From Tsuneonella rigui (lineage in GTDB: Bacteria; Pseudomonadota; Alphaproteobacteria; Sphingomonadales; Sphingomonadaceae): a stretch of DNA of 64,000 bases. The stretch spans positions 62,001 through 126,000 of the forward strand of contig NZ_RSEL01000029.1 in NCBI RefSeq assembly GCF_003958625.1, given 5' to 3'. The notes under the pieces are model-generated. The model searched no databases, had not been told where the DNA came from, and saw only the letters and a list, made by a program, of their open reading frames with translations. The translations under genes were made by a program, and so were the position numbers. Below are positions 20,787-59,646 of this stretch, in pieces; the first letter of the stretch is position 1; every line of letters starts with the position of its first letter.

Positions 20787-23700
20787 CTAGAATTTAATAC
20801 GCGCCGAGGCGAAGAATTCGCGGCCATCGAAATCATAGCCGTTGCCGATCGGATTGTTGTTCCGGGCGAAAACCTCGCTGCCGTCAACCTTCGGGGGTGC
20901 CCGATCGAAGATGTTGGAAACGCCGATGCGAGCTTCCCACCGATCCGTCGTGTAGCGGATAGAGGCGGTGTGGGTGAAGTACTTGCCCGCATAGCCGATA
21001 TCGCGGCAGTAGATACCATCGCCCGGGACGATACCGTCCGGCACGCCCGCCGCGTTGCGCGAACCGCCGCCGAGGCAGGTGTCGCCCGCAAAGCCTGGTG
21101 TCTTCTGGCCATCGGGTCCGTATCCGAACGCGTCGGACAGCGGTTCGATATCTGCATCCTCCTCTTCGACCGGTCCGATGTACCGCGTCTGCCAGGTGAA
21201 TGTCAGGTTATCCATCGCAGCGGTGAACGTTGCCCGGCCGGTCCACTTCGGAAAGCCGAATTGCCCCTTGTCCTCATCAAGACTTTGCACTCCATCATCA
21301 TCGATGAAGACCGTGCTTCGCTCGAGCAGCCTGTTTGCACGAACATTGAGCCCAAGCACCAATGAACGGTCACCCAGCTGAAGGTCGTAGCCCGCGCTCG
21401 CGTTGAAATCGAGCCCGCGGACCTTGTCCTTGTTCAGGTTGATAAAGCCCGCCTCGACATCCGAGATAAGGAAGCGGTCGTTGATGCTGGTGCTGGAGGT
21501 AATGCGGTCGCAGAATTGACTGCGAATGCCGTCCACCCGTGCGAAGCAGTCGTTGATGATAAACTGCTCCGAAGGCTCGATAATCGAGTCGGTAACCTGA
21601 ATATTATAGTAATTGACATTCAGATTGAGGCTGAGCGGACCCCACCGGTCGCCAAACGCGACGCCCGTCGTAAACGACGTTGACGTCTCCGGGTCGAGGT
21701 CGAGACTGCCGCCGGTGGTCGATTCAATACCGAACACCTGCAGGGTGTTCAGTTTCTGGGCGTCGATGCCGACCTTGGTCGGATCGCGCCCTTCCCGGAT
21801 GCAGTTCGAGATGATGGCCGGGTCGCGGGTATCCAGTCCGGGCTGATAGATGTTGTCCGTGCTCCCCGGCAACGGCTTGAACGCATCGGTGGGAACAGCG
21901 CAGGGGTCGGTGATGGTCGGGAACCCGCTTTGACCGGCCAGGAAATTCTCGCGCAAGTTGGGCGCGCGGAACGACGTGCCGTAGCTCATCTTGAACAGTA
22001 GCTGTTCGATCGGGCGCCAGCCCAGCTTCATCGAATAGGTTTCCGCCGTCCCATAGTACTGGTCGTCAGTGAGGCGTCCGGAGAGATTGACGCGCAGCTC
22101 CTGGGCTGCCCGCTGGTTGAGCAGAAGCGGGATATCGAGCTCCGCGAAGGCTTCCTTGACGTGCTTCTTGCCACTGGCGCCGCGGTCCTGCGAGAACGCG
22201 AACTGCAGACCGTTGGAGGCAACGAAGTCCGGCCTCGAATCGACCTTGTCCTCTCGGTACTCCCCGCCGATCACCAATGCCACATCGCCGCCAGGCGCTA
22301 TGTGGAACAGATTGCCGGTCGCGTACGCATTGATGAGGAACTGATCGTAGGTGGTGTCGAAACGCCGCTCGCTGAAAAGGTAGGCGCGCTCCGCCTCGGT
22401 AAGGTTCCCGATCGGCTTTCCAAGCAGTTCCGGGGTGAACAGGTTGACCGGAACACAGCCCTTCAGAAGGTCGGGGGCGGCCAAGTTCGGATTGGCGAGC
22501 GTGCCGGTGCATGGGGTGATCACCGGACCACCGAAAACACCGCCGATCGGAAGGCTCGAATCGTAGTCGTCCGCGATGCCGTCGCCGTCATTGTCGGCAA
22601 TACCGTCGTCGTTGAAGTCGGCCGTCGGGTCGACACCGAGGGACAGCGCAAGCTTGTCCTCTCGAATGCCGCGGCGGACCGAGACACCCTTGGAGTGCGA
22701 GTACACGCCAGCCACTTCGAACGACCAGCTCGGGGCGATGAACGGCAGGTCGCCCTTGACGCCAAGGACGCCGCGGTACTGATCCTGCACGACGTCGGTG
22801 TTGTTGCGGTCGCCCACGACCGCAACGATCGGAGCGACCGGCAGGATAAAGCCGGTGGAAAGTCCACCCGGCAAGCCGAGCGCCGCGCGACGCTTGTTCT
22901 CTGCCGCCCGGCAATCGACACCGCTGGGATTGGTGAGAAAATTGCACGGATTAAAGGCGTTCTCTGCGGGCACTTCGGGGAACAGCTGAGCGGCTCCGTT
23001 ATTTTCATTGAAAACTTCGACGCGCGAGAAGTTCGCCTCGAAGAATGGTGTGATGTTGGCAGCCCCCCCGAGCGAGTACTCACCGTACGCCATCACGTTG
23101 TAGACTTTTTGCTGGTTGATCAGCACCTGGCTCGGATCGAATTCAGCATTCTGCTTCTGGAAGTCGACGTCGCGGATTCCGTCCCCGTTCGCATCGATAT
23201 TCCGACCAAGCAAGGCGGAGTCGCTGAAGCCCGGGATGAAGGTGTTACCGGCTCCGCCGGTATAATAGATGGAGCCGTAATTGGTTTGCTCCACGAAGAT
23301 GCGGCCGGTGAGATTGGTAAGCTTGCAGGCTCCCTCCGAGGTGCTGATATTCGGGTTTACCTGACGCACCAAAGCGTTGGTGCGAAGGTCGATCGTGCGG
23401 ACGTTGCCGTTTTGATCGACTTCGTAGTTCTGGTCGCAATTCGACAGAAACGGACGGTCGCCGAAGCGAACCGCGTCGCGATAGGCGTATTCGGCGCCGA
23501 ACCCGAAGAACCCGCGATCGAACGTTTTGCCCCATGCCGCGCTGACCGTGTAGTCATCGCCCCCGCCGTGCGGGTTGAGATTTCCCTCCGCGTAGAGTTC
23601 GAGGCCGGTGAAATCCTTGCGTAGGATGATATTCCCGACGCCCGCGACCGCATCGGAACCGTACACCGATGAAGCGCCGTCGAGCAGGAGGTCGTAGCGG

Positions 23701-24227
23701 GCGATCAGCGAACCCGGGAGCATGTTGATCGACGGATTGCTCGGTGAGCCTTCGACACCGGACGGCGCCAGGCGGCGACCGTTGAGCAGAAGCAACGTAC
23801 GATCCGCGCCGAGTCCACGCAAATCAAGGGTTTGCGAACCGGGCCCATTGGGCAAGACATAGCCCGAGAACGACGCGTCGATCTGCTGGCCCGCCGCTGA
23901 CTCGGAGCGCTGCAGGACCTGTGCCGGATCAAACTCGCCGACATCCCGCGAGGACTGTCCGGTGATGACCTGGATGGGCGAAATGCTCGTGTACGTGCTG
24001 GGCTGCTTGATCCGCGAGCCCGTTACCAGGATCTGCCCTTGGTTGGGGTCGCCCTCGGCATCGGTCGTGGCGATGGTGGCCGCCTCGTCTTCATCCGTCG
24101 GCACGTTGGTGGTTACGCTCGTTGCCTGCCCGTCCCCGGCGTCCTGCGCCAACGCAGGGTTCGAGACGGCCATCGCGACAGACGACACGGAGACTGCGAG
24201 TCCCATCGCAATCCTGTACTTATTCAT
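20787..24227 (-). CDS. Large TonB-dependent outer-membrane receptor with Asp-rich loops
   Basis: A 1146-residue receptor with a signal peptide ending at NPALAQ (about residue 28). The plug shows ILVTGSRIKQPSTYTSI, TLDLRGLGADRTLLLLNGRR and LLLDGASSVYGSDAVAGVGNII, the pattern of the large sphingomonad/xanthomonad receptors. The barrel ends in FFASARIKF. Two loops hold Asp-rich repeats like calcium-binding type-3 repeats: DGIADNDGDGIADDYD and ANGDGIRDVDF. Such receptors usually import glycans, peptides or siderophores; the ligand here is unknown. The ATG giving MNKYRIAMG was chosen because the 24 residues before it would precede the signal peptide. It is a single-gene unit with its own terminator. 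Confidence 0.92.
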   Translation of the reverse strand: MNKYRIAMGLAVSVSSVAMAVSNPALAQDAGDGQATSVTTNVPTDEDEAATIATTDAEGDPNQGQILVTGSRIKQPSTYTSISPIQVITGQSSRDVGEFDPAQVLQRSESAAGQQIDASFSGYVLPNGPGSQTLDLRGLGADRTLLLLNGRRLAPSGVEGSPSNPSINMLPGSLIARYDLLLDGASSVYGSDAVAGVGNIILRKDFTGLELYAEGNLNPHGGGDDYTVSAAWGKTFDRGFFGFGAEYAYRDAVRFGDRPFLSNCDQNYEVDQNGNVRTIDLRTNALVRQVNPNISTSEGACKLTNLTGRIFVEQTNYGSIYYTGGAGNTFIPGFSDSALLGRNIDANGDGIRDVDFQKQNAEFDPSQVLINQQKVYNVMAYGEYSLGGAANITPFFEANFSRVEVFNENNGAAQLFPEVPAENAFNPCNFLTNPSGVDCRAAENKRRAALGLPGGLSTGFILPVAPIVAVVGDRNNTDVVQDQYRGVLGVKGDLPFIAPSWSFEVAGVYSHSKGVSVRRGIREDKLALSLGVDPTADFNDDGIADNDGDGIADDYDSSLPIGGVFGGPVITPCTGTLANPNLAAPDLLKGCVPVNLFTPELLGKPIGNLTEAERAYLFSERRFDTTYDQFLINAYATGNLFHIAPGGDVALVIGGEYREDKVDSRPDFVASNGLQFAFSQDRGASGKKHVKEAFAELDIPLLLNQRAAQELRVNLSGRLTDDQYYGTAETYSMKLGWRPIEQLLFKMSYGTSFRAPNLRENFLAGQSGFPTITDPCAVPTDAFKPLPGSTDNIYQPGLDTRDPAIISNCIREGRDPTKVGIDAQKLNTLQVFGIESTTGGSLDLDPETSTSFTTGVAFGDRWGPLSLNLNVNYYNIQVTDSIIEPSEQFIINDCFARVDGIRSQFCDRITSSTSINDRFLISDVEAGFINLNKDKVRGLDFNASAGYDLQLGDRSLVLGLNVRANRLLERSTVFIDDDGVQSLDEDKGQFGFPKWTGRATFTAAMDNLTFTWQTRYIGPVEEEDADIEPLSDAFGYGPDGQKTPGFAGDTCLGGGSRNAAGVPDGIVPGDGIYCRDIGYAGKYFTHTASIRYTTDRWEARIGVSNIFDRAPPKVDGSEVFARNNNPIGNGYDFDGREFFASARIKF

Positions 24228-24447
24228 GTGTGTACTCCCCAAGGTATCAATCAGTTTACAACATTTCTCATGGCGACTGCGGGTCAGCGCACATGACACT
24301 TTTCTAGTTGGACATAATTCCTGAAGTAATGACCGTCGCCAGTTGCGTATTGGCGGGTCGCCCCATTTTTAACGTTATCTCTCAACTTTCCCTGAACTCA
24401 CCCCACGGGGATGACTTGCACAAGTAAACACCGCGGCACCGCGATTC

Positions 24448-25416
24448 TTACGAATTGTAATAGCTTATGACGGCCGACCGGCGGGCGCTCTGGGAGGCAA
24501 GCGCGCCGTCAAACGACGCCGGCCTCCGAGCCGCCTTAACTCTCACCGTCTTGGAGTAATCGGTCCAATCCCCGCTTCCGCGCAGGTGCGACATCCGCCA
24601 GAAGGTCTTTGACCCCCTGGACACGTAATGACCGCGAACGACGTGCATTCGCGGCATTGCGCGCCCGCTGTCGGAATTGCCCGCCGGCCTGTCGGAGGAC
24701 GGTGCATACTCCCCAAGACGCAAACTGACTTCGACGTGACCCAGAGGCGGTCGGCGCGCGCCCGCCCGATGGTCCTGCGGCGCCGACACAGAGTGCTTCT
24801 CTCGCAGTACGTTGGGGCTCGACAGCAGAACGGAAAACGTCAGCAGATAGGGGATGAAGAACCAGGTTCCCTCGGCCTCCAGGGTCATCTTGTTCCTGAG
24901 CGTCGCCTCTCCCGCCTTGGCCACTGTGCTTATCCACCCCGGGTCCATGGTCATCGCGACCCGCGTCAGGACATGGTCCAGATGCGGGAAAAGGCGGTGA
25001 GCGAATTGCCGGCTTCCACGAACATTCGGCCGGGCCTCGCCGTCGAGGTCGAACTCGATGACGCCCGGCAACCGCTGGGGACGACCCGCAGTGGTGGTAT
25101 AATAGGGTAGCACCGTGCCGCTCCGTCCGTCCTCGGACGCCTGGACGAGACAGCCAAGCTTCTGGCCGCCCTCCAGCGGCTCGGCAAACCACTCGAGCCA
25201 GAATACGGCCGCCGGAAGCCTCAACACTTCGCGTTCGAGCGAAGGGAGCTCCGGGCACTCGCGAAGGAGGTCCGAGCATTGCTTGGAGGCATCGGCGTCA
25301 AGGACATATCGCAAGGGACAGCACCGGAGCTGCATCGCGTCGCGCCGCGATACCCTCACGTCTCCGCGCGGCAGCACGAGACGACTGGCGACGATCTGAT
25401 CCATCAGCATGACCAT
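24448..25416 (-). CDS. Protein of unknown function divergent from a PadR regulator
   Basis: A 322-residue protein that I do not recognise. It has no signal peptide or membrane helix. The N-terminal part has a Cys-rich stretch (LRCCPLRYVLDADASKQC), the middle reads like an alpha/beta domain (VIEFDLDGEARPNV..), and the C-terminal part holds VVRGHYVSRGSKTFWRMSH, a motif style seen in proteins from mobile DNA. The start ATG lies just 10 bases from a palindrome that recurs beyond the PadR gene, so PadR probably represses it. The antisense frames are clearly poorer. The 220-base gap between it and the TonB receptor start shows nothing recognisable. Confidence 0.65.
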   Translation of the reverse strand: MVMLMDQIVASRLVLPRGDVRVSRRDAMQLRCCPLRYVLDADASKQCSDLLRECPELPSLEREVLRLPAAVFWLEWFAEPLEGGQKLGCLVQASEDGRSGTVLPYYTTTAGRPQRLPGVIEFDLDGEARPNVRGSRQFAHRLFPHLDHVLTRVAMTMDPGWISTVAKAGEATLRNKMTLEAEGTWFFIPYLLTFSVLLSSPNVLREKHSVSAPQDHRAGARRPPLGHVEVSLRLGEYAPSSDRPAGNSDSGRAMPRMHVVRGHYVSRGSKTFWRMSHLRGSGDWTDYSKTVRVKAARRPASFDGALASQSARRSAVISYYNS

Positions 25417-25425
25417 GCGGCATCG

Positions 25426-25444
25426 ATAATACGTGTCGTACTAT
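25426..25444. promoter_or_regulatory. Candidate PadR operator 1
   Basis: Imperfect palindrome ATAATACG-TGT-CGTACTAT (one mismatch between arms) in the gap between the unknown minus-strand gene and padR. The same arm ATAATACG-N3-CGTA recurs at 26195-26213 on the other side of padR. Confidence 0.6.
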
Positions 25445-25591: not shown

Positions 25592-26125
25592 ATGGCCGAG
25601 CCGCTGACCCACCATGAAAGCCACGTGCTTGCCGTCATCCGAAAATGGGAACCGGTCACGGCATATTTTGTCCGGAAGGCTCTCCGCCAGAGCCTGGCGT
25701 CCAGCTTTTCCGACAGCCCAGGCAGCGTCTATCCGATCATCGAACGCCTGAAGCGTCGCGGCTACGTGACCGCGCAAGCGGCGCTCGACTCCGGGCGCAA
25801 GGCCGAGTTGCTGGCCTGCACTCCCCGCGGGGAGAGCGCGATTGTCGAATGGTTGGTGCGAGTGGACGAAAGCGACCTGTTGCCCGAAGATCCATGGCGC
25901 ACCCGGGTTCTGTTCAGCGACCTGCTGGATCCCCCTGCGCAGGTCGAGTGGCTTCAAAAACTGAGGTCGGCAGCCGAGGCGGAGCTCGACGCGATCAAGG
26001 GGCGCCTGCAAATGTCCACCGTTCCGAAAGAAGCCGACGCGGCCGAGGGCGCGCGACTGCAAACGGAAGCGCGGCTGATCTGGCTCGATCGATTGATGGC
26101 GCGATCGATCTCCCGGGAAGGATAA
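25592..26125 (+). CDS. PadR-family transcriptional regulator
   Basis: A 177-residue PadR-type repressor. The winged helix occupies about residues 5-80: LTHHESHVLAVIRKWEPVTA, SFSDSPGSVYPIIERLKRRG with the PadR-specific SxGSxYPxxxRLxxxG recognition region, then the wing. The C-terminal half (AQVEWLQKLRSAAEAELDAI, then ARLIWLDRLMARS) is the helical dimerisation and ligand part. PadR proteins usually repress transport or detoxification genes and release on binding small hydrophobic compounds. Two matching palindromes flank the gene, so self-repression and control of the divergent unknown gene are likely. Confidence 0.88.
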   Translation: MAEPLTHHESHVLAVIRKWEPVTAYFVRKALRQSLASSFSDSPGSVYPIIERLKRRGYVTAQAALDSGRKAELLACTPRGESAIVEWLVRVDESDLLPEDPWRTRVLFSDLLDPPAQVEWLQKLRSAAEAELDAIKGRLQMSTVPKEADAAEGARLQTEARLIWLDRLMARSISREG

Positions 26126-26194: not shown

Positions 26195-26213
26195 ATAATA
26201 CGTATCGTATTCT
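26195..26213. promoter_or_regulatory. Candidate PadR operator 2
   Basis: Palindrome ATAATACG-TAT-CGTATTCT; the inner 15 bases AATACG-TAT-CGTATT (26197-26211) are perfect. It shares its arms with the site at 25426. It lies 70 bases after the padR stop. No clear gene starts directly to its right on the plus strand, so its target is unknown. Confidence 0.6.
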
Positions 26214-26342: not shown

Positions 26343-26765
26343 TCACCGGTCCGCGGATGGGCCGTCGCTGCCGGCGATCAGGAGAGCCAGCGCCTGACGG
26401 ACCAGCCGAGACGCGGATTCGCGGTCCCTGCGAGCGCACCAGATAGCGATTTGCCGCGCGAGGTGACCTCTTTCCCCAGGCAATAGCGGCGCCGCGAATC
26501 CCCCACCACGCAGGGCGCCGATTAACCAACCGAGTTCTGTCTCGATGTCCCCCATTGACCCGCCGGCGGAGCGACACACGTGCATGATCCGTTGGGTAGA
26601 TTGGTCGAGGCATTTTCTTGCCTCGGTCCAGGTCCGACCGCTGACAACGCGCCCGGTTTCCATCCAATGTGTCGAACGATCGCGCGCGCCGAGGCTCGAC
26701 GCGGCCGCGGCATCGCTGGGCGCGTAGTTCGTTGCAAAGGCTTTCTTGGCGCGGGGCATCGCCAT
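26343..26765 (-). CDS. Unknown small protein, paralog A of a LuxR-flanking pair
   Basis: A 140-residue soluble protein without known domain. Its last 95 residues (from TWTEARKCLDQSTQRIMHVC to about LLIAGSDGPSA) align without gaps to the protein encoded at 27807-28199, with about half of the residues identical by eye. Shared positions include ARQIAIWC/AWQIAIWC, CRS and LxRQxLAxLI. The first 45 residues are not shared. It is predicted to be all helical. The start is the second ATG option near MAMPRAKK; a perfect lux-box-like palindrome sits 28 bases upstream, so the LuxR protein may control it. Confidence 0.7.
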   Translation of the reverse strand: MAMPRAKKAFATNYAPSDAAAASSLGARDRSTHWMETGRVVSGRTWTEARKCLDQSTQRIMHVCRSAGGSMGDIETELGWLIGALRGGGFAAPLLPGERGHLARQIAIWCARRDRESASRLVRQALALLIAGSDGPSADR

Positions 26766-26793
26766 CGGTGTGCGGCCTCGATCCCCTGCGCGC

Positions 26794-26813
26794 TATACCG
26801 TAAATGCGGTATA
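26794..26813. promoter_or_regulatory. lux-box-like palindrome
   Basis: Perfect 20-bp inverted repeat TATACCG-TAAATG-CGGTATA between paralog A (28 bases from its start) and the divergent luxR gene (120 bases from its start). Length and symmetry match lux-type boxes bound by LuxR/AHL dimers, though the base sequence differs from the classical box. Confidence 0.6.
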
Positions 26814-26933
26814 TGCGGCCGGTCGCACCTAGGCTGTTGCACCCGTTCGCCGATGACATGACATTCGTCCGGTCGCCAGGCAGGTTCGTCGATTGAAATG
26901 AAATCGGACTGACACGTTTGATAGGCTCCGGGG

Positions 26934-27650
26934 GTGAACAGGCTTCACCTTCAAGCGCTTGATGCAATCCACGAATTCGGTGAGATCGACGATGCGCAGG
27001 TGCTGCTGGAGCGATCCTCGCAGGTTCTCAAAGCTTTCGGATATTCCGCCTTTGTATTGAGCCGTCTTCCGCGGCCTGGCGCCGCCGGCCAGCCAGAGAT
27101 CCTGTTGAACGGCTGGCCCGAGGGCTGGAGCCACCGCTACGACGAGGCCGGGCATTATAACAATGATCCGGTCGCCTCTTATTGCGCGGTGTCCAGGCAA
27201 CCGTTCTCGTGGACCGAGATCCCCGCTCCCCACATGCACGGGCGACGGGGGCTTCAAATCGTCAATGAAGCTTCGGAATTCGGCCTGACCCACGGCCTGT
27301 GCGTTCCAGTCCACACGCCGCTCGGTACCGGCGGCATGTCACTGGCCGGCCAAGGCCTGGACGAAGAGCCCGGCGTGCGTGATCTTGCGTCCCTCCTGGC
27401 GTTCAAGATCTGCATGGCATTCGAGCAGGTCGGGCCCGACATTTCCCCCCGGGCCCGCCTTACACCCAGAGAGCGCGATGTCCTGAGCTGGATCGCGATG
27501 GGCAAGACCGTCGAAGAGGTCGGCATGATACTGTCGATCTCGGGACATACGGTTGGTGAGCATCTCAAGCGGATTCGCGCGAAGCTGCACACGAGCAACA
27601 ACGCCCATTCGGTCATCAAGGCGCTGCAAACCGGACAGCTTCAGCTTTAG
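26934..27650 (+). CDS. LuxR-family quorum-sensing regulator without a cognate synthase (LuxR solo)
   Basis: A 238-residue regulator. The N-terminal autoinducer-binding domain spans about residues 15-160. The C-terminal GerE-type helix-turn-helix spans 170-235 (LTPRERDVLSWIAMGKTVEE, SISGHTVGEHLKRIRAKL). All six conserved residues of AHL-binding receptors are present with the spacing of TraR: W65, Y69, D78, P79, W93 and G121. So it should bind an acyl-homoserine lactone or a close mimic. No luxI-type synthase is in the window. It starts at a GTG. A 20-bp lux-box-like palindrome lies upstream, and small paralogous genes sit on both sides. Confidence 0.9.
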   Translation: MNRLHLQALDAIHEFGEIDDAQVLLERSSQVLKAFGYSAFVLSRLPRPGAAGQPEILLNGWPEGWSHRYDEAGHYNNDPVASYCAVSRQPFSWTEIPAPHMHGRRGLQIVNEASEFGLTHGLCVPVHTPLGTGGMSLAGQGLDEEPGVRDLASLLAFKICMAFEQVGPDISPRARLTPRERDVLSWIAMGKTVEEVGMILSISGHTVGEHLKRIRAKLHTSNNAHSVIKALQTGQLQL

Positions 27651-27806
27651 CCGCGTAAGACCGGCCCATCTTCGCTCGTAGGCAGCTTGGCGCACTTGCT
27701 TCGCGCTGATAGTGCTCGCGTCCAAGCGTCACGCATGGCCGCCTGGAGGCTGTCGGTGCGCTCGCAAGGACCGATTGTTGGCTGAAATTCTCCGGACCGG
27801 GGAAAG

Positions 27807-28199
27807 CTAGCCGCGCTGAGGCCGCGACTTGACGCCTGCTGTGGATGGATTGTCTCGGCGCGTGATCAGCATGGCCAGCAACTGACGGATCAGCTGATAC
27901 GCGGACCCGCGATCCCCATGAATGCACCAGATCGCAATTTGCCACGCAAGCTGGGCCCTTTCCTCAGGCGGCATGGATGCCGAGAACCCCTGGCAACGCA
28001 AGGAATCGATCCAGGCCTGAAGCTCTGCTTCGATGGCTCCGATCGCCGTTGCGCCAGAACGGCAAAGGTCGGTCAGCCGCCGTGCCGAGTGGTCGAGGTG
28101 ATTGCGCGCATCGCTCCAGGCCCGATCGCGGGCATGGTCGGCGGGGACGTGCACGGTCACTGCCCCGACACGCGAGATTGGCTCAGCATTTGTCAGCAA
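27807..28199 (-). CDS. Unknown small protein, paralog B of a LuxR-flanking pair
   Basis: A protein of up to 130 residues, homologous over about 95 residues to the one encoded at 26343-26765 (shared core AWQIAIWC, DRGSAYQLIRQLLAMLI). It has no signal peptide, membrane helix or known domain. It begins 3 bases after the stop of the ABC-permease/M1-peptidase gene on the same strand, so it is probably the last gene of that operon. The start given is a TTG; GTG codons further in are alternatives. That one copy is operonic with a transporter-peptidase and the other faces luxR suggests an accessory role in a signalled process. Confidence 0.68.
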   Translation of the reverse strand: MLTNAEPISRVGAVTVHVPADHARDRAWSDARNHLDHSARRLTDLCRSGATAIGAIEAELQAWIDSLRCQGFSASMPPEERAQLAWQIAIWCIHGDRGSAYQLIRQLLAMLITRRDNPSTAGVKSRPQRG

Positions 28200-28202
28200 G
28201 GC

Positions 28203-31200
28203 TCATCTTGCCGAGCACGCGACGTCGGCCAGATCGTCCTCGCGGTTGCGGTCGATATACAGGCCATGAGGGTCAATGCTGACGCGGGTAGGCTCCTGTT
28301 TCGTGATAAATCGCAGCAGCTGCCGACCACTGCGAACGTCTCGCCGGCTGTCGAAGAGTGCTTCACCGGGGGCCTCGCCCTCCCCGCGCGTCACCAGGAC
28401 ATCCACCGAGATCGAGAGGGGCGCTTCGACTTCCCGGCCCGTTCCATCGGCATAGAATTTGCGCGCGTCGACCGGGACGGTCACATCCCAACGCCCGTCC
28501 GGTCTGCGCATGCAGGAAGCGCTGCCAAGCTGCAGATCGTACAGCGTGACACGTTCGAAGAGGTCCTCGATAAGCTGCCGCTGCTGCGGGGATCGCGCTT
28601 CCCCCTGCAGGACGGTCACAAGATCGACCGAGCGCGGATAGGGCGGCGCGGAGAAGCGGTATCGCGCCACCAAACGGCGGAGCGCGCGGTTCACGGCCTC
28701 CTCCCCCATCTGATCCTGCAGCAGATAGAGGACGAGGGCGCCCTTGCCGTAGGCTATGTGCTGGTCGCTCGACCCGGTCCTGATCAGCGGCTCCTCACCC
28801 CCGACGCCGGCGCGGCGGCCCTTGAGATACCGGTCGAGCTGAAACGCCAGGAGGTCGTCGATCCCCTTGCCGTGACGCTGCTGCTTGAGAACCATCAGCG
28901 CCGAGTACTGCGCCAGGGTCTCGATCAGCACCGGGGCGCCTTCCATTCGCGTGCCGCGGACCTGGTGCCCCCACCACTGGTGCGACAGCTCGTGCGCTGC
29001 GAACATGGTGGCCATGTCGATGGTGCCGGGGTCCCGGAGGTCCATCGCCATGGGCGCAATCTCTCCCATAGCGATTACTCCGGGATAGGCGTGTGCGCCA
29101 TCGCGGTAGGCCGCCTCGACTGCACGCACATGATCGAATTGGTACGGTCCGAAGGCGCGCGAGAAGGTCTCGATGGAAGCCTCCATCGCCGTCATCAACC
29201 GGTTCACATTCCAGCGGTGGCCCGGATCGTAGTAGATGGCGTAGTCGATGCCGTTGCGGGCACGTCGGGCGACCGCAAAGCGGCCGGACTGGATGGAAAA
29301 GTTGTTCTGGATCGGACCGCGCGACACGAAGCGGGTTATCCGGCGACCACCGCGGAGCCGGTCTTCCACGATCTTGCCCGGCGCAATGGCGAGTTGGTCG
29401 GCGCTGGTCGAGACGGTGATATCGGCGGATATCCATGCGTTGTCCGACAGCATCCGGGCATTCGCCTGCGCATCTTCCAGACGGGGCAACGCGCGCTGGC
29501 GCGGAAGGCCCATCCTTCGCCGCGCTTCCGGATCCTCGAGCAGCCCGCTGTCGTGCATGCCGATCCGAGGCGTCAGCGCAAAGGCATCGAGCTCAGTGCC
29601 GTTGGGGAGAACTCCCGCGTTACCGCCCGACAGGCCAAAGCCGCGCCGGTCGCGTGTGGTCCGAAATGCAATCGTTCGCGTTTCGGAGGGGCGCATGGGC
29701 TTGGTGAGACGATAGATGCGATAGCGAAAGGCGCGATCGTCCAGGGCGAGACGGGAGTCCGGAACCTCAAGACCCACCAGGTCCAGCGCGGGATCGGCTA
29801 GGCGGATGTGGATCGTGTCGATCGGAACCGGCGTCCTGTTCACCAGGCGATAGCTCCCGCTGACCTGCGCGGTGCCCTTCTCGGGATACAGCGCCACCGC
29901 CAATTTTATGTCGTCGACGACAGGCTGCGGAATGCTCCCGTAGCGCAGATACCGCTTCTCGTACTCGGCGAGGTACCGCTCGGTGCTACGCGCGGTCTCG
30001 ACATGGTTGAAGAGGTTTGTGTTTACGAGAACCCAGGTGCCGCACAGCAACATTGCGAGGATGAGAACGAGCACAGCCCCGCGCGCGGTGTCCGGCATCG
30101 TGCAAAGCGCGCGACGGAACCTGGTGCTGGCCGGAGCTGCCGCACCGCGCGGCCACAGCATGTGCGCAGCTTTCAGCAGGAGGGCCGCCGTCATGGCCCA
30201 GAAGGCGCGCACCCACCACGCCGCCTCAGCCGAAAAGCCCGTTCCCGCGAGATCCGACAAGGGCGTCTCCGGGACCGAACCATAGAGCAGTAGCGGATGC
30301 GCTAACCCCAGTGCCGGCCCCAGGATGAGCAGGACGAAGTACACCGTCAGGATGCCCCAGGCTGCATACTTGCTTGGACTTGCCGCGTGGATGAACACCG
30401 CGAGAGCGGCGACCGCAAGCGTGTCCAGGCCGCGCGGGACCAGATACCAGCGCAAGTAGTCAGCGGGCACGATGGCAACGGAACCGTCGATCGCCTGCAG
30501 CGTCATGGCGACTGCTGCTGAAACGACGAGCGTCGCCAGAAGCACGAACGCGAGACCCAGCATCTTGGGCAGCATCAGGGCCCAGGCGGGCAGCGGCGTA
30601 GCGTCGATGATCGCATCGACCCGCCGCTCGCGCTCGCGCCACACGAGCTCACCCCCGAAGTACGCCGCGACGACGACCAGCAAGGTTCGGAAACTGTCGT
30701 CGAGAATTGGCACCAGCACCGATGTCAGCGGGTGGACCGGAGTGCCCGCGACGGTCGACGCGGTGAGGAGACCGGGCAGCGCGAACGCCAGCGCTATGAG
30801 CAGGAGGATCCAGAAGACTGCGCTCTGCAGGATGAAGCGCGCCTCCATCCTTGCCCGGCCGATGAACTGCGCGGTCGCGGTGTGGCGATCGAAGCGCGGC
30901 GACGGAAGACGCCCGATGGACGAATCGAACCTTCCGAGCCGGCTATCGCTGGTCCGTAAAGTCTGTTCCCGCGCGAGCTTGCGTTGCTGCCTCCGGGACA
31001 GGGGACGACCGGTGAAGCGAAATCGCCAGACCGTGAGTGCCAGCAGGCCAAGTGCGAGCGTCATCCACACAAGCCTGCTGAGGACCATCAGCCCGCTCAC
31101 CGGGACCGCGCCGGCATTGATTTCCGCGGCAGTCAGATAGCGCGAGGCGGCCATGTAGGCCGACATGCCTAGGGGATCGAGGAGAACGCGGGCGGTCTGG

Positions 31201-31817
31201 ATGCCGGTCTGCCCTTCCATCAGGCGCTGGCCGACCAGATAGAACAGCAGCACACCGACCACGCCGACGAACGTGCCGGCGGTCGACCGGGTCGCGCTCG
31301 TCAGCGCGAACAGGATCGCGAACACGATCAGGGTGTTGGGCAGCGCGAACAGGCCCAATCCGTAGGCATAGCCGGCAGCCTGATTTGCGCCCAGCATAGC
31401 CTGATTGGCGAACGGCATCAGCGTACCGCTCCACGTACCCAAGGTTGCTGAGCACATGGTCAGCGCGCCGATCGCAAGAGCGCCGGCAAACCGCCCCAGC
31501 AGGTACGCGCGTTTGCCGACCGGCGTTGCCTGGACGAGAGGCCCGAACCCGGTCAGCTCATCGCGCAGCATGGCGTTGGCGACGAAAGCCGCGCCGACGA
31601 ACGGGAACAGCAGTGCCGCAACCAGGTGCAGCTTGATGATCGCGTGCGGCGCGTTGAACAGCACCGTCCCGCCCGGCTCGCTCACCAACCTGAAGACCGC
31701 CATGTTGAAGAAGGCAAGGGCGAAGAACAACGCCGAGGCAGCGGCAAACAGCGGGCTGCGGATCTGATAGCGAAACTCGAAGGCCGCCACTCTCGTCAGC
31801 ATGGCAAATCCGCTCAT
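28203..31817 (-). CDS. ABC-2 type permease fused to an M1-family metallopeptidase
   Basis: A 1204-residue membrane protein. The first 600 residues hold two sets of six or so transmembrane helices of the ABC-2 permease type (FEFRYQIRSPLFAAASALFF at the start; a second set from about residue 330). The C-terminal half is an M1 aminopeptidase domain with the zinc motif HELSH at 942-946 followed 18 residues later by the third ligand Glu (LIETLAQY) and a GAMEN-like AMGEI loop. It is likely anchored in the inner membrane with the peptidase in the periplasm. The start overlaps the ATPase gene stop (ATGA). Export or degradation of peptides is the natural guess; the substrate is unknown. Confidence 0.9.
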   Translation of the reverse strand: MSGFAMLTRVAAFEFRYQIRSPLFAAASALFFALAFFNMAVFRLVSEPGGTVLFNAPHAIIKLHLVAALLFPFVGAAFVANAMLRDELTGFGPLVQATPVGKRAYLLGRFAGALAIGALTMCSATLGTWSGTLMPFANQAMLGANQAAGYAYGLGLFALPNTLIVFAILFALTSATRSTAGTFVGVVGVLLFYLVGQRLMEGQTGIQTARVLLDPLGMSAYMAASRYLTAAEINAGAVPVSGLMVLSRLVWMTLALGLLALTVWRFRFTGRPLSRRQQRKLAREQTLRTSDSRLGRFDSSIGRLPSPRFDRHTATAQFIGRARMEARFILQSAVFWILLLIALAFALPGLLTASTVAGTPVHPLTSVLVPILDDSFRTLLVVVAAYFGGELVWRERERRVDAIIDATPLPAWALMLPKMLGLAFVLLATLVVSAAVAMTLQAIDGSVAIVPADYLRWYLVPRGLDTLAVAALAVFIHAASPSKYAAWGILTVYFVLLILGPALGLAHPLLLYGSVPETPLSDLAGTGFSAEAAWWVRAFWAMTAALLLKAAHMLWPRGAAAPASTRFRRALCTMPDTARGAVLVLILAMLLCGTWVLVNTNLFNHVETARSTERYLAEYEKRYLRYGSIPQPVVDDIKLAVALYPEKGTAQVSGSYRLVNRTPVPIDTIHIRLADPALDLVGLEVPDSRLALDDRAFRYRIYRLTKPMRPSETRTIAFRTTRDRRGFGLSGGNAGVLPNGTELDAFALTPRIGMHDSGLLEDPEARRRMGLPRQRALPRLEDAQANARMLSDNAWISADITVSTSADQLAIAPGKIVEDRLRGGRRITRFVSRGPIQNNFSIQSGRFAVARRARNGIDYAIYYDPGHRWNVNRLMTAMEASIETFSRAFGPYQFDHVRAVEAAYRDGAHAYPGVIAMGEIAPMAMDLRDPGTIDMATMFAAHELSHQWWGHQVRGTRMEGAPVLIETLAQYSALMVLKQQRHGKGIDDLLAFQLDRYLKGRRAGVGGEEPLIRTGSSDQHIAYGKGALVLYLLQDQMGEEAVNRALRRLVARYRFSAPPYPRSVDLVTVLQGEARSPQQRQLIEDLFERVTLYDLQLGSASCMRRPDGRWDVTVPVDARKFYADGTGREVEAPLSISVDVLVTRGEGEAPGEALFDSRRDVRSGRQLLRFITKQEPTRVSIDPHGLYIDRNREDDLADVACSAR

Positions 31818-32719
31818 GCCGCGCGCCGCGACCGCGCCAGCGCGGCGAAGTATACGTCCTCAAGATCCCCGCGCGCGGCAGCGAAGCCCTCGCCCGGATC
31901 GCTGTCCGAGAGCACGTGGATGATCGTTCGGCCGCCGAAAAGGCGGGTCGAGATGACGTCGTGCCTGGCGCGAATCCGCTCGAGCTCGGCGCGCTCGACG
32001 GATTTGGTCCAAATCCGGCCGTCGCTTTGGGCGATCAGGTCCGACGGCGCGCCTTGAAGGCCAATGCGGCCCGCCGCCAAGATGGCCATGCGAGGACACA
32101 GATCGCTCACGTCCTCGACGATATGGGTCGAAAGGATCACCACCGTATCCTCCCCGATCTCGGCGAGGAGGTTCAAGAAGCGGTTGCGCTCTTCGGGATC
32201 GAGCCCTGCGGTCGGCTCGTCAACGATGATGAGACGCGGATTGCCGATCAGCGCCTGCGCGATGCCGAACCGCTGGCGCATGCCGCCGGAAAAGCCCGCC
32301 AGCGCCTTGCTCCGCACGTCCCACAGATTGACCTGCTGCAACAACCGCTCGACCATGTCCTTGCGCTCGGCGGGCCGCGAAAACCCCTTCAGCACCGCCA
32401 TATGGTCGAGCATGTCGAGCGCCGAGATGCGCGGGTAGACTCCAAAGTCCTGCGGCAGATAGCCGAGCGTGCGCCGCAACCGTTGGGGCCCGGCGATCAC
32501 GTCGATGTCGGCGAAGCGGATCGTGCCCGCGCTCGGCGTCTGCAGCGTCGCGATGCACCGCATGAGGGTGGATTTTCCTGCCCCGTTCGGTCCGAGAAGA
32601 CCGAACATGCCATGTGGTATCGACACACTGATTTCGTCTAGCGCGCGCGTCCCATTGGCGTAGGTGTGGCTCACCCCGTCGAGCTGGAGCACCGCTCCAA
32701 TGATCTGATTTGACAACAT
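31814..32719 (-). CDS. ABC transporter ATP-binding protein
   Basis: A 301-residue ATPase. Walker A is FGLLGPNGAGKST (residues 39-51), the signature is FSGGMRQRFGIAQAL, Walker B is LIIVDEPTAGLDPE, and the switch His is in ILSTHIVED. The C-terminal 80 residues (MAILAAGRIGLQGAPSDLI, then ISTRLFGGRTIIHVLSD) are the accessory domain common to drug- and peptide-type ABC-2 ATPases. It should energise the permease-peptidase whose start codon overlaps its stop. Transcription starts in the gap shared with the divergent two-component genes, so it may be under their control. Confidence 0.94.
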   Translation of the reverse strand: MLSNQIIGAVLQLDGVSHTYANGTRALDEISVSIPHGMFGLLGPNGAGKSTLMRCIATLQTPSAGTIRFADIDVIAGPQRLRRTLGYLPQDFGVYPRISALDMLDHMAVLKGFSRPAERKDMVERLLQQVNLWDVRSKALAGFSGGMRQRFGIAQALIGNPRLIIVDEPTAGLDPEERNRFLNLLAEIGEDTVVILSTHIVEDVSDLCPRMAILAAGRIGLQGAPSDLIAQSDGRIWTKSVERAELERIRARHDVISTRLFGGRTIIHVLSDSDPGEGFAAARGDLEDVYFAALARSRRAA

Positions 32720-32742: not shown

Positions 32743-32791
32743 CTGTCGAGCATCTGTCGGACGGTCGTTTTTTTCGACAGGTTGCTGTCAG
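32743..32791. promoter_or_regulatory. Repeated CTGTCG half-sites between the ABC and two-component operons
   Basis: The 83-base divergent gap holds CTGTCGA (32743), CTGTCGG (32754), TCGACAG (32774) and CTGTCAG (32785). Neighbouring half-sites are 11 bases apart, one helical turn, the usual spacing of OmpR-type boxes. They are good candidates for binding of the adjacent response regulator. Confidence 0.5.
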
Positions 32792-32802
32792 CTTTTGGCG
32801 AT

Positions 32803-33501
32803 ATGGCTGTTGCGGTGACGGACAACTCGCGCATCCTGCTGGTCGAGGACGACCCTGCCCTCTCGCGTGAAATCCTGCGCGCGCTGGCGGGCGACGGGCG
32901 CGAGGCCGATCATGTCGCGCGCCTCGCCGACGCGTTCGAAGCGATCGTCCTTCATCCCTATCGATTGGTGCTGCTCGACAGACGCCTGCCCGATGGCGAG
33001 GGGCTGCATCTCATCCCCGCAGCACGGTCACGCGTGTCACCTCCGGTCATCATCGTCCTCACCGCGCGTGACGAAGTGGCGGACCGGATCGAGGGCCTCG
33101 ATGCGGGGGCGGACGACTATCTCGTCAAGCCGTTCGCGCTGGCGGAACTGACCGCGCGGGTGCGCGCGGCCTTTCGGCGACCGGCGGCGACCGTTTCCTC
33201 CGAGCCGGTAGAGATCGGCCGCCTGAGCTTCGACCTGGCTACGCAGGAGACCAGCGTGGCCGGGCGAACGCTCACCCTTCGCCGACGCGAACTTGCGCTG
33301 CTCGCCCTGCTTTTAAGCCGCGCTGGCCGGGTGGTGCAGCGCGACCATCTTGACCGCGAGCTCTATGGATTTGATGCGCCGGTCACCCCGAACGCGCTTG
33401 AGATCCAGGTCTCCCGTTTGCGGCGGATATTGAGGGACGCCGGCGCGGGGGTCGAGATCACGGCTGTCCGGGGCGTCGGCTACATGCTACAGCCATGCTG
33501 A
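32803..33501 (+). CDS. OmpR-family response regulator
   Basis: A 232-residue two-domain regulator. The receiver has ILLVEDDPALSREIL, the phosphoacceptor Asp59 in VLLDRRLPDGEG, IIVLTARDEVADRIEGLDAG and the Lys in DYLVKPFALAEL. The C-terminal winged helix has LTLRRRELALLALLLSRAGR and ALEIQVSRLRRIL..AGVEI..VRGVGYML. The start is set at the ATG giving MAVAVTDNSRI; an in-frame TTG 7 codons upstream is possible. Its stop overlaps the kinase start. It is divergent from the ABC/M1 operon, its probable target along with its own promoter. Confidence 0.93.
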   Translation: MAVAVTDNSRILLVEDDPALSREILRALAGDGREADHVARLADAFEAIVLHPYRLVLLDRRLPDGEGLHLIPAARSRVSPPVIIVLTARDEVADRIEGLDAGADDYLVKPFALAELTARVRAAFRRPAATVSSEPVEIGRLSFDLATQETSVAGRTLTLRRRELALLALLLSRAGRVVQRDHLDRELYGFDAPVTPNALEIQVSRLRRILRDAGAGVEITAVRGVGYMLQPC

Positions 33502-34874
33502 GCGCCCGGCGCTCGCTGGCGCTCCGCGCAAGCGTGGTCTTCGCCTCGGTCTACGCGGCGATCTTCCTCGCTGCGATCTCGATCAGCGCTGCGTTCACCT
33601 GGGCTGATCGCAGCGACGGCAACCAGCTGGGCCCGGTGCTGGCGCGCGACTATGCGATTGCCGACCTTCGCGATCAGGAGGAGGGACCGCCAACTCTGGT
33701 TGCGGGCCAGTTCTTCGACATGGCGGCACGCAACCCGGATCTCTGGCTCGTCGTCCTCAAGCGCGGCCGGATCTTCACCTGGGGCAAGGTAACCCCCGAG
33801 ATTTCTCGCACCGTCATCGGCCTCCGGACGGTGACCGATTCTGCGCTTTTCCGCGTGCCCGCCGCCGCGATGCCGCTTGCCGGCTCGGCCATTCGGCAAA
33901 TCGAATTTCCAGATGGCCCGGCATTGGTTGCTGCAGGAGGAGTCGATCCGGCAACCCTGTCGACCTGGGAGTCGGTCCAGCTGCTGCGGGACCCGACGGT
34001 GGCGGCGATGCTCGTCGCGGTTGCTGTGCTCAGCCTGATCGGCATGGGCGTCGCCGCGCGGGCGTTCAGGCGCGCTCTGGAACCCATCATCGTCGAAGCG
34101 ACCTCGATCGGCGCGGACGATCCCACCCGCCGCTTGGCCGAGGCCAAGGCACCGCGCGAGCTTGGCCCACTCGTTGACGCTTTCAATGCGGCACTCGACC
34201 GGCTCGAGCGCGAACTTGGCCGGCGGAGGCGATTCATAACCGATGTCGCGCACGAGCTGCGCACCCCGCTCGCGGTGGTGACCCTGCAAGCGGACGCGCT
34301 GCCGGCGGTCGAGGGAAAGGCGGATCTGCAACGCGGGCTCGTGCGGGTGACGCGCTTGCTCGGCCAGATGCTCGATCTTGAGCGGCTTACCCTCGCCGTC
34401 AACCTGCAGGAGGGTGTCGACCTTATCCCCATCGTCCGCGATGCCGCGGCAGACCTCGCGCCGATGGCGGTCGACCGCGGATACCGGCTGTCGCTCGATA
34501 CACCCGATGATCCGGTGCGGGTCACCGCCGATCCCCACGCGATACACCGCGCCGCGATGAACCTCATCAGCAACGCCATCGCCCATGGCGGCGGCAGCGG
34601 AGCGATCGGTATCCGTGTCGGGACAGACGCTACGATCACGGTGCTCGACGAAGGGCCCGGCGTTGACCCAGACCTGGCGCCGCGCCTGTTCGAGCCCTTC
34701 GTCAGAGGTCACTCGGAAGAAGAAGGTTCGGGCCTCGGCCTTCACCTCGTCCGTGAGATTATGCGTTCGCATGACGGGGACGTGGAGCACCGGCCCAGCA
34801 CTGCCGGATCGATGTTCAGGCTGGTTTTCTCGAGAACGGCAGGAAGCCCGAAAGCACGCAATCGAAAAGGGTGA
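33495..34874 (+). CDS. Sensor histidine kinase partnered with the OmpR-type regulator
   Basis: A 459-residue membrane kinase. The first helix (VVFASVYAAIFLAAISISAAF) and second helix (AAMLVAVAVLSLIGMGVAA, about 174-192) enclose a periplasmic sensor of some 135 residues without a recognised fold. A HAMP-like linker leads to the dimerisation helix with His253 in DVAHELRTPLAVV. The ATPase part has NLISNAIAHGG, VLDEGPGVD and GSGLGLHLVREI. It overlaps the regulator gene by 7 bases. Given the divergent ABC/M1 operon, the signal may be a peptide or envelope stress, as in Bce-like systems; that is inference. Confidence 0.93.
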   Translation: MLSARRSLALRASVVFASVYAAIFLAAISISAAFTWADRSDGNQLGPVLARDYAIADLRDQEEGPPTLVAGQFFDMAARNPDLWLVVLKRGRIFTWGKVTPEISRTVIGLRTVTDSALFRVPAAAMPLAGSAIRQIEFPDGPALVAAGGVDPATLSTWESVQLLRDPTVAAMLVAVAVLSLIGMGVAARAFRRALEPIIVEATSIGADDPTRRLAEAKAPRELGPLVDAFNAALDRLERELGRRRRFITDVAHELRTPLAVVTLQADALPAVEGKADLQRGLVRVTRLLGQMLDLERLTLAVNLQEGVDLIPIVRDAAADLAPMAVDRGYRLSLDTPDDPVRVTADPHAIHRAAMNLISNAIAHGGGSGAIGIRVGTDATITVLDEGPGVDPDLAPRLFEPFVRGHSEEEGSGLGLHLVREIMRSHDGDVEHRPSTAGSMFRLVFSRTAGSPKARNRKG

Positions 34875-57277: not shown

Positions 57278-57696
57278 GCCGACTCGAAGCCGAACTCGCG
57301 GCTCTGGCGGACCTCTCGCCAGCGCAGCTAAAAGAGAAGTGGATCGGTATGGAGGGGGCATCCCCTCCCTCGGTTCCCACGGCCCTGTTGCGCCGCCTGC
57401 TCGCACAGCGCCTGCAGGAGCGCCGCCACGCTGCGCTGCCAGCGCTTGTCGCGCGCGAGCTTGTGCGGGTTACCTCGCAAGGCGGAGCAGCCCCGCCTCC
57501 TCCCCCGAAGGTCCAGCTCACACCGGGCACCCGGCTCGTGCGCGAGTGGAACGGGCAGACCGTAACTGTAGAAGTGCTGGAGACAGGCTTTGCCTACGCC
57601 GACCGTACCTGGCGCTCCTTGAGCGAGATCGCTCGCCACGTCACCGGTGCCCACTGGTCGGGCCCGCGCTTCTTCGGACTGACCGGCAATGGCTGA
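57274..57696 (+). CDS. DUF2924 protein of the recombinase module
   Basis: A 140-residue protein from the GTG that overlaps the DUF3489 stop. It shows [40 protein letters not shown] and the C-terminal TPGTRLVREWNGQTVTVEVL, then WRSLSEIARHVTGAHWSGPR FFGL in the family's order. The last region resembles a DNA-binding fold. It always stands before large serine recombinases in this module, and here its end overlaps the recombinase start by 8 bases. I infer a helper role in integration or excision. Confidence 0.9.
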   Translation: MSRLEAELAALADLSPAQLKEKWIGMEGASPPSVPTALLRRLLAQRLQERRHAALPALVARELVRVTSQGGAAPPPPPKVQLTPGTRLVREWNGQTVTVEVLETGFAYADRTWRSLSEIARHVTGAHWSGPRFFGLTGNG

Positions 57697-59371
57697 GAAG
57701 GTCCTGCGCTGCGCGGTCTACACCCGCAAATCGACCGAGGACGGACTCGAGCAGGAATTCAACAGCCTTGATGCGCAGTACGAGGCGTGCGCTGCCTACG
57801 CTCTGAGTCAGCGCCACGAGGGCTGGGTGCTGGTGGACGATCGCTACGACGACGGCGGGTTTTCGGGCGGCCACATGGAGCGGCCTGGCCTCAAGCGCTT
57901 GCTTGCAGACATCGATGCGGGAAAGGTCGATATCATTCTTCTCTACAAGATCGACCGGCTGACCCGCAGCCTCACCGACTTCTCGAAGATCGTCGAGGTG
58001 CTCGACCGGGCTGAAGCGAGCTTCGTCAGCATCACCCAGAGCTTCAACACCACGACCAGCATGGGACGCCTCACGCTCAACATGCTGCTCTCGTTCGCCC
58101 AGTTCGAGCGCGAGGTCACCGGCGAGCGCATCCGCGACAAGATCGCGGCCTCGAAGAAGAAGGGCCTGTGGATGGGTGGACCGGTCCCGCTCGGATACGA
58201 GGTCAGGGATCGCAAGCTAGTCGTGAAGGAAGTTGAGGCCGGGCAGGTCCGGCATATCATGCGCCGGTACCTCGCGTTGAACTCGGTCCCAGCCTTGGCC
58301 GAGGAGCTGAACCGCGAGGGCTATCGGACCAAGGTCCAGCACCGGAGCAGCGGGCCGCACCGCGGGGACTGCATCTATCGCCGAGGGACGCTTTATCACC
58401 TGCTCACGAACCGTATCTACCGCGGGTTCATCGTGCATAAGGGCACAGCCCATCCCGGCGAACACGAGCCGATCGTCGACGAGCAGCTCTGGGATGAGGT
58501 CCAGGCACTGCTCGCTGTCAATGCGTCCGGCTCCGCGCGCCGGCTGCGGCACCGGCATCCCAGCCTTCTCGCTGGTAAGCTGATCGATGGCGAGGGACGG
58601 GCCATGACACCCAGCCATGCCATTAAATCCCGACGGCGTTACCGATACTACGTTACCCGCCCCGACCAGCTCGACGGCACTCGCGCTTGGCGTGTGTCGG
58701 CCCATGACCTCGAGCAGCTTGTGGGCTCGGGCATCGCATCGAAGCTGACCGACGGCCAGTTCATCATCGAACTCGCCGGGGCGTCCAGTCCAGTCGCCGA
58801 ACAGCTCCAGGCAGCATCCAACGAAGCAGATCTCCTCGCAGCAACCTTGCGGAGCGGTCACGGTCACGCGAAAGCCGAATTACTGGCTGTGCTCGTCCGG
58901 GAGGTTAGGCTGCACGAGGACAAGGTCGAGATCGAGCTCAATTCGGACACGATCTGCGAGCGCCTTGGGTTGCAGACCAGACCGAACGATCCCCAGCCCG
59001 CTCTCATTACAATACAGGCTGTTCGGGTGCGCAGGGGTCATCAGCTACGCCTCATAGTCCCCGGCCCCGCTGATACAGCCACGAAGACGCGACGTCGTGA
59101 TGATAAGCTCGTTGCGCTCATTGCCGAAGCGCATCAGGCAAGGGAACTAGTGCTAGCCAACAGTGAGAAGCCGATCGCGGCGATAGCGCGCGAACAGGGA
59201 CGCTGCCGGACACGGCTCGGCAAGCTGATCGCGCTCTCCTGCCTCGCACCCGAAATCGTCATCGCGATCGTCGAGGGTAGTCAGCCCGGCCATCTTACTT
59301 CCGCGCGACTGATGAACACGCCTTTGCCGCTGGCTTGGGCTGATCAGCGCCACGAGCTTGGGTTCTCCTGA
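57689..59371 (+). CDS. Large serine recombinase
   Basis: A 560-residue site-specific recombinase. The resolvase-type catalytic domain (residues 1-150) has Ser15 in VYTRKSTEDG, DGGFSGGHMERPGLKRLLAD and LYKIDRLTRSLTDFSKIVEV. It is followed by the recombinase domain with GGPVPLGYEVRDRKLVV and YHLLTNRIYRGFIVHKG. The zinc-ribbon region (SLLAGKLIDGEGRAMTPSHA) has no Cys pairs, which seems typical for this branch. It should insert and excise the island. No tyrosine integrase is seen. tRNA-Leu lies 189 bases further, so the gene sits at the island edge. Confidence 0.93.
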   Translation: MAEKVLRCAVYTRKSTEDGLEQEFNSLDAQYEACAAYALSQRHEGWVLVDDRYDDGGFSGGHMERPGLKRLLADIDAGKVDIILLYKIDRLTRSLTDFSKIVEVLDRAEASFVSITQSFNTTTSMGRLTLNMLLSFAQFEREVTGERIRDKIAASKKKGLWMGGPVPLGYEVRDRKLVVKEVEAGQVRHIMRRYLALNSVPALAEELNREGYRTKVQHRSSGPHRGDCIYRRGTLYHLLTNRIYRGFIVHKGTAHPGEHEPIVDEQLWDEVQALLAVNASGSARRLRHRHPSLLAGKLIDGEGRAMTPSHAIKSRRRYRYYVTRPDQLDGTRAWRVSAHDLEQLVGSGIASKLTDGQFIIELAGASSPVAEQLQAASNEADLLAATLRSGHGHAKAELLAVLVREVRLHEDKVEIELNSDTICERLGLQTRPNDPQPALITIQAVRVRRGHQLRLIVPGPADTATKTRRRDDKLVALIAEAHQARELVLANSEKPIAAIAREQGRCRTRLGKLIALSCLAPEIVIAIVEGSQPGHLTSARLMNTPLPLAWADQRHELGFS

Positions 59372-59559: not shown

Positions 59560-59646
59560 TGGTGCGGTCGAGAAGACTCGAACTTCCACGGGCTTTCGCC
59601 CACAACGACCTCAACGTTGCGCGTCTACCAATTCCGCCACGACCGC
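59560..59646 (-). tRNA. tRNA-Leu (anticodon GAG)
   Basis: An 87-base tRNA with CCA encoded. The acceptor stem is GCGGTCG/CGACCGC, and the anticodon arm is CAACG-TTGAGGT-CGTTG with anticodon GAG at 59612-59610. A variable arm of leucine type follows (GGGCGAAAGCCC region), then a T arm with GTTCGAGTC. It reads CUC codons. Its 3' end faces the recombinase, the usual orientation for island insertion next to tRNA genes. Confidence 0.95.

Follow-up and report, generated by a model that had tools for sequence, protein, structure and literature searches.

In a 64,000-nucleotide stretch of the Tsuneonella rigui genome (hereafter the window), we identified a 238-aa LuxR that is probably an acyl-homoserine lactone (AHL)-responsive solo, transferred into this strain and carried on an integrated island. 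As a transferred AHL-type solo, it is a further case of a known class of regulators. The gene and its immediate neighbors are as follows.

26343..26765, minus strand: small gene 1, encoding 140 aa and transcribed away from luxR, without a Pfam or NCBIfam match
26794-26813: inverted repeat TATACCG-TAAATG-CGGTATA, a candidate operator
26934..27650, plus strand: luxR (the LuxR solo), GTG start, 238 aa, autoinducer-binding domain plus GerE HTH
27807..28199, minus strand: small gene 2 (130 aa), a paralogue of small gene 1, convergent with luxR
28203..31817, minus strand: ABC-2 permease fused to an M1-type peptidase domain (PF12679, PF01433), directly upstream of small gene 2

The luxR open reading frame (ORF) encodes a genuine member of the AHL-type receptor family, beyond chance. 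Both domains that mark QS-domain LuxRs (AHL receptors) scored above their curated Pfam cut-offs: Autoind_bind (PF03472) at 85.6 bits against a cut-off of 23 (3.2e-24, aa 29-155) and the GerE HTH at 51.9 bits against 23.5 (5.8e-14, aa 175-229). The other mark of the family, the invariant residues in TraR numbering, is present at nine of nine positions. A previous reading of the sequence alone (here, the sequence-only reading) had matched W65, Y69, D78, P79, W93, and G121 to the AHL-contact residues of TraR, and all six are found at those positions with TraR spacing, at a constant offset of +8 from the W57, Y61, D70, P71, W85, and G113 listed in TraR numbering (PMC4338825). The three HTH residues E180, L184, and G190 correspond to TraR E178, L182, and G188 at an offset of +2. 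An intact pocket is common among relatives of this protein, with six residues complete in 40/66 and all nine in 24/66, and does not prove AHL binding. The relatives by sequence that have solved structures are LasR, QscR, RhlR, CviR, TraR, and SdiA, and the window LuxR has its domain family and key residues in common with TraR, LasR, and QscR. TraR and LasR have partner synthases.

Narrower identities were tried and set aside. The protein scored 91.5 bits as a PA1136-type regulator (TIGR03541), below the cut-off of 215.6, and 48.7 bits as TraR itself (NF010444), below the cut-off of 250. A PAB (plant-signal) solo needs a substitution at W57 or Y61, of which Y61W is the one named (PMC4288048), whereas this LuxR keeps W65 and Y69.

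As far as PF00765 goes, this LuxR is a solo. The reported lack of a LuxI homologue in the 64 kb extends to the entire genome, as PF00765 (LuxI) gave no match anywhere in the 2.86 Mb (30 contigs, rated 100% complete, window included). A PF00765-type luxI is thus neither adjacent nor elsewhere, and one just outside the window, named earlier as a finding that would tell against a solo, is excluded for this family; the search was for PF00765 only. The LuxR is also the one PF03472 protein of its genome. Since a PF00765 search of 14 control genomes returned 0 matches, positive controls were run in family and genus genomes, where 61 of 199 and 3 of 11 (own genome counted), respectively, had matches.

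Such solos are common, with 4860 counted among 6030 proteins in one survey (PMC4338825), and it is on this basis that we place LuxR in a known class. The same survey describes solos as outnumbering paired LuxRs, known targets as few, and some solos as neighbors of transposases, with examples in Erythrobacter and Novosphingobium (PMC4338825). The surveyed solos likewise have an autoinducer-binding domain and an HTH domain without a cognate luxI; unlike them, the window LuxR lies between two small-gene copies in a tRNA-Leu island, and no ortholog of it was found in the collections searched. Within the Sphingomonadaceae, luxR solos have been reported, along with four LuxRs that are sister to TraR/RaiR and for which plasmid transfer was proposed (PMC4288048). 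These come from the same bacterial family, whereas the window genome is without luxI and offers an integrated island as the mobile context.

Relatives of the window LuxR are distant in every collection in which they were found. The best match was 34% identical in family genomes (n=199) and 32% in class genomes (n=385), where others reached 36% over ~200 aa. In the plasmid collection, identity was at most 38% among the 25 matches listed of 1023, and all 1023 fell below 60%; phage records gave 16 matches, and the 10 listed were 24-29% identical. No LuxR relatives were found in GTDB contigs or viral contigs, and the DNA of the luxR segment had no match in the plasmid collection. A PF03472 protein occurs in 6/11 genus genomes (own counted); 9/10 of the matches in the other genus genomes were aligned and showed 27-33% identity, so no LuxR ortholog was seen in the genus. 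Because the family, class, and plasmid sets hold no close ortholog, we regard luxR as an accessory gene.

Phylogenetic analysis covered 67 rows, namely, the query LuxR and 66 relatives taken from fetched loci at >60 bits, a subset of all matches. The query grouped with two plasmid-borne LuxRs, one from Bosea vestrisii and the other from pMLb of Mesorhizobium japonicum, with support of 98/93, and it fell outside a 25-row clade (100/100) that contains 24 of the 33 same-family rows. Its highest identity within the tree was 36%, to a Methylobacterium protein (L058), and its own branch was 1.01 changes per column, a length that leaves the exact place in the tree and the donor unsure. From these placements we infer that LuxR came by transfer from outside the family, which agrees with the plasmid-transfer idea put forward for the four sphingomonad LuxRs (PMC4288048).

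Many of these relatives are accompanied by a synthase gene. A LuxI profile that combined the annotated pMLb synthase with four ORFs in sense orientation revealed a luxI ORF in the loci of 42/66 relatives and in the same locus for 7 of the 10 nearest. The two tree-nearest proteins keep all nine residues at only 32-36% identity to the window LuxR. The pMLb protein (MAFF_RS00175) adjoins an annotated acyl-homoserine-lactone synthase, unlike the window LuxR; for the Bosea plasmid protein (QO058_RS30555), luxI was neither annotated within 6 kb nor found among the ORFs. Both luxR genes adjoin a small HTH gene, whereas none was seen in the window. Some near relatives reside on plasmids typed as conjugative.

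The sequence-only reading had also placed luxR on an island, and this proved correct. Three features mark the right end of the island and its integration neighborhood.

57157-57696: DUF2924 gene, beside the serine recombinase
57689..59371, plus strand: large serine recombinase (PF00239/PF07508), at the right end of the island
59560..59646, minus strand: tRNA-Leu (GAG), predicted by ARAGORN, in the integration neighborhood

Many congener matches start at tRNA-Leu. The distance from tRNA-Leu to putA is ~50 kb in the window versus ~1.8 kb in the congener G126, so that a recombinase at a tRNA gene goes together with a relative's site that is without the block. The window ORFs of the set that lie between these two points had no counterpart in the 40 kb read from G126 (E<=1e-10), and G126 has no PF03472 protein. 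GC content is 0.58-0.66 over 18-60 kb compared with 0.655-0.71 over 1-18 kb, and the GC3 of luxR (0.73) sits within that of adjoining island genes (0.71-0.82). A second congener, G200, carries a 99% identical recombinase protein at the same tRNA-Leu place, and the 40 kb read there contained neither LuxR nor other island ORFs of the set; the exceptions were the DUF2924 gene and two ORF matches that were either short or weak. The recombinase and DUF2924 proteins are 99% identical between the two strains (G200 contig C1; L104, 4683-6894), whereas the flanking putA and 60732-62789 proteins are 86-90% identical, which indicates that the element, whose cargo in G200 is different, moved recently. G200 also has luxI.

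The family membership, key residues, PF00765 absence, island context, and tree position described above are direct observations; the last three strengthen the receptor reading, which stands.

We next consider how such a receptor might act. Exogenous AHLs, for example from AHL-producing congeners, would enter the cell and occupy the canonical LuxR pocket, and the AHL-bound dimer would then bind DNA differently at one or a few promoters. The likeliest of these would be the luxR/small-gene-1 intergenic region, where the palindrome, were it an operator, would allow repression of small gene 1 to be relieved or imposed by AHL. AHL binding is quite likely; control of small gene 1 falls somewhat short of an even chance, and we doubt that the palindrome is the site of LuxR.

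The palindrome had been described as perfect, 20 bp long, and lux-box-like. Its sequence and place hold, including the 28 bases that separate it from the start codon of small gene 1 (ATG, 26765), but its reading as a lux box is not supported: it occurs at chance level and is without the CT-N12-AG core, although its length and symmetry do fit, and the searches yielded no ortholog for a comparison of conservation. The 20 bp consist of 14 paired bases around a 6-bp centre that is not palindromic. Two non-palindromic CT-N12-AG strings are located at 26909 and 26926. The palindrome has 2/20 bases in common with the Vibrio fischeri lux box, and the lux and tra box sequences gave no match in the palindrome region. 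Perfect 7-6-7 palindromes number 13 in the window versus 8.85 +/- 2.7 in 20 dinucleotide shuffles, and in 2000 shuffles of the 168-bp intergenic region, 13.7% contained a perfect palindrome with 7-bp arms at spacers of 0-12 and 5.9% at spacers of 4-8; the frequency is therefore not above chance. A scan for further copies of the 20-mer, suggested earlier, found none in the genome at <=2 mismatches. A 3-mismatch site at 54854-54873 lies inside an ORF, with a chance mean of 0.51 per shuffled window. Palindromes near luxR in 14/66 relatives included none like TATACCG-N6-CGGTATA.

The centre of the palindrome lies 38.5 bp upstream of the small gene 1 ATG and 130 bp upstream of luxR. Taking the ATG at 26765 as the true start, its distance from this ATG suggests that the palindrome, if used, would better suit a repressing operator over a promoter than an activator box of the classical kind. 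The minus strand of this region yielded no sigma-70-like promoter. For comparison, the tra boxes of M. loti R7A have their centres 69 bp upstream of traI1 and 67 bp upstream of traI2-msi172-msi171 (PMC5882170), and palindromes without CT(N12)AG, unverified as sites, are noted in alphaproteobacterial solo promoters (PMC4338825).

The two small genes between which luxR sits are paralogous (50% identity over 94 aa), and the TTG start of small gene 2 is 3 bases past the stop of the ABC/M1 gene. Relatives occur in only 2 of 198 other family genomes, those of Actirhodobacter atriluteus and Parapontixanthobacter aurantiacus; none were found in viral contigs, and small gene 1 had no match in the plasmid collection. 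Small protein 2 is modelled as a four-helix fold (mean pLDDT 70, pTM 0.55), and a fold search with this model returned no match at E<=0.001.

On the other side of small gene 1 lies a set of genes with a regulator of its own.

20787..24299, minus strand: TonB-dependent receptor (PF00593 and PF07715)
24448..25416, minus strand: 322-aa protein, divergent from padR, without a Pfam or NCBIfam match
25427..25443: PadR-like site TAATACGTGTCGTACTA in the 322-aa/padR divergent promoter, 0 mismatches to TARTACGNNNCGTAYTA
25592..26125, plus strand: PadR-family regulator (PF03551, 2e-8)
26196..26212: second PadR-like site, just past padR, 1 mismatch to TARTACGNNNCGTAYTA

The small-gene, 322-aa, PadR, and TonB genes are also clustered in two other genera (loci L100 and L101), where the small gene is flanked on one side by genes for DoxX and LytTR and on the opposite side by those for the 322-aa protein, PadR, and the TonB receptor. 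The order differs in the window, in which the TonB gene lies beyond the 322-aa gene and luxR occupies what is the TonB side of padR in L100 and L101; nothing significant emerged from a search for a TonB gene remnant in the luxR segment. No AHL-type LuxR was seen among the ORFs read in L100 and L101 (~20 kb each, with a Pfam scan of some). Near the small gene, L100 encodes a GerE-domain response regulator, and a LuxR search of the two small-gene genomes gave weak matches (E 1.7e-5). The earlier proposal that the island cargo is tied to cell density thus finds no sequence evidence, as the neighbor genes also form a cluster in other genera, where the stretch read showed no AHL-type LuxR.

The window PadR is 56% identical to those of L100 and L101, and the TonB receptors are ~23-35% alike, so their orthology is unsure. 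Relatives of the 322-aa protein in G086 and G062 are 58% identical; the family, with the consensus RLHxVRGHxVxRxxKTFWRxxHxRG, occurs in 5/198 other family genomes, one of them by a weak 42-residue match, and had no match in the plasmid collection. In G094 (contig C1, 4129956-4142164; L055, L056), the distance between a 322-aa relative and a luxR-luxI pair is ~10 kb; the LuxR there has a degenerate pocket and belongs to the 25-row same-family clade.

All three loci carry the 17-bp inverted repeat TARTACGNNNCGTAYTA without mismatch in the promoter between the 322-aa gene and padR (L100 11365, L101 11359) and again past padR with 1 mismatch each (L100 12115, L101 12109), the second copy standing before the TonB-receptor gene in L100 and L101. 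It is a post hoc pattern, derived from these same three loci, two of which are mutually close. We consider it a likely PadR operator, with two copies per locus in three genera, and these conserved sites around padR make PadR rather than LuxR the likely older regulator of the neighborhood. In the window, the second site could drive a plus-strand transcript antisense to small gene 1; alternatively, it may be a vestige of a TonB gene that has been lost.

Several other explanations, not mutually exclusive, bear on what this LuxR does. A functional LuxR that answers to a ligand other than AHL, or acts ligand-free, is unlikely: non-AHL ligands have been described for LuxR solos (PMC4288048) and the genome is without a PF00765 synthase, but the non-AHL examples given there have conserved-site substitutions (Y61W and others), whereas all six pocket residues are intact here and luxI adjoins 7/10 of the nearest relatives. 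Somewhat less unlikely, though still a minority view, is that LuxR is a passenger whose targets do not survive in this host, the palindrome being a chance inverted repeat. A palindrome count within the shuffle range, the lack of a second site at <=2 mismatches, the clustering of the neighbor genes elsewhere with no AHL-type LuxR seen, and conserved sites that look PadR-type all point this way; against it, the luxR frame is intact, its GC3 of 0.73 is island-like, and the nine key residues are retained. The solo could also be recently acquired and inert. LuxR might be wired into the PadR-controlled uptake module, a gene set found clustered in other genera with no such LuxR; placed between the two small-gene copies, it would repress at the TATACCG palindrome until AHL lifts the repression, or only once AHL is bound, and so make the module hear the signals of AHL-producing congeners. 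We hold this arrangement to be improbable.

Other roles would tie LuxR to known mobile elements. That it governs island excision or transfer, as TraR does on symbiosis ICEs, is very improbable; some near relatives are on plasmids typed as conjugative and the island has a serine recombinase, but ~30 kb separate luxR from the recombinase, no further copy of the motif occurs at <=2 mismatches (the 3-mismatch site at 54854 being within an ORF), and transfer genes are absent from the 26 window proteins scanned. Fainter still is the prospect that both small proteins are LuxR antiactivators, comparable to TraM, the antiactivator of TraR, or to QseM in Mesorhizobium ICEs. The two genes flank luxR, small protein 2 is modelled as helical, and a traR gene adjoining the antiactivation gene qseM has been described (PMC5882170). 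However, relatives of the small genes have DoxX, 322-aa, PadR, and TonB genes as neighbors, and no AHL-type LuxR was seen among the ORFs read there; the small proteins had no Pfam match above cut-off, and the fold search with small protein 2 found nothing at E<=0.001.

An AHL-responsive, transferred solo thus remains the reading that we favor, and it offers a defined target: a receptor beside genes that cluster elsewhere without one, in a genus with LuxI in 3/11 genomes. If the link is true, a mobile element lets its host hear the signals of neighbors; if it is false, this is another passenger solo.

The remainder of the island carries further cargo. The ABC-2/M1 gene is accompanied by an ABC ATPase gene (31814-32719) and by a divergent gene pair for a response regulator and a histidine kinase (32782-34874). 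Metal-related genes in 35333-56623 encode a P-type ATPase with a heavy-metal domain, a multicopper oxidase, and a cation-efflux protein, and the ORFs at 49166-55366 resemble, by size only, an RND efflux set.
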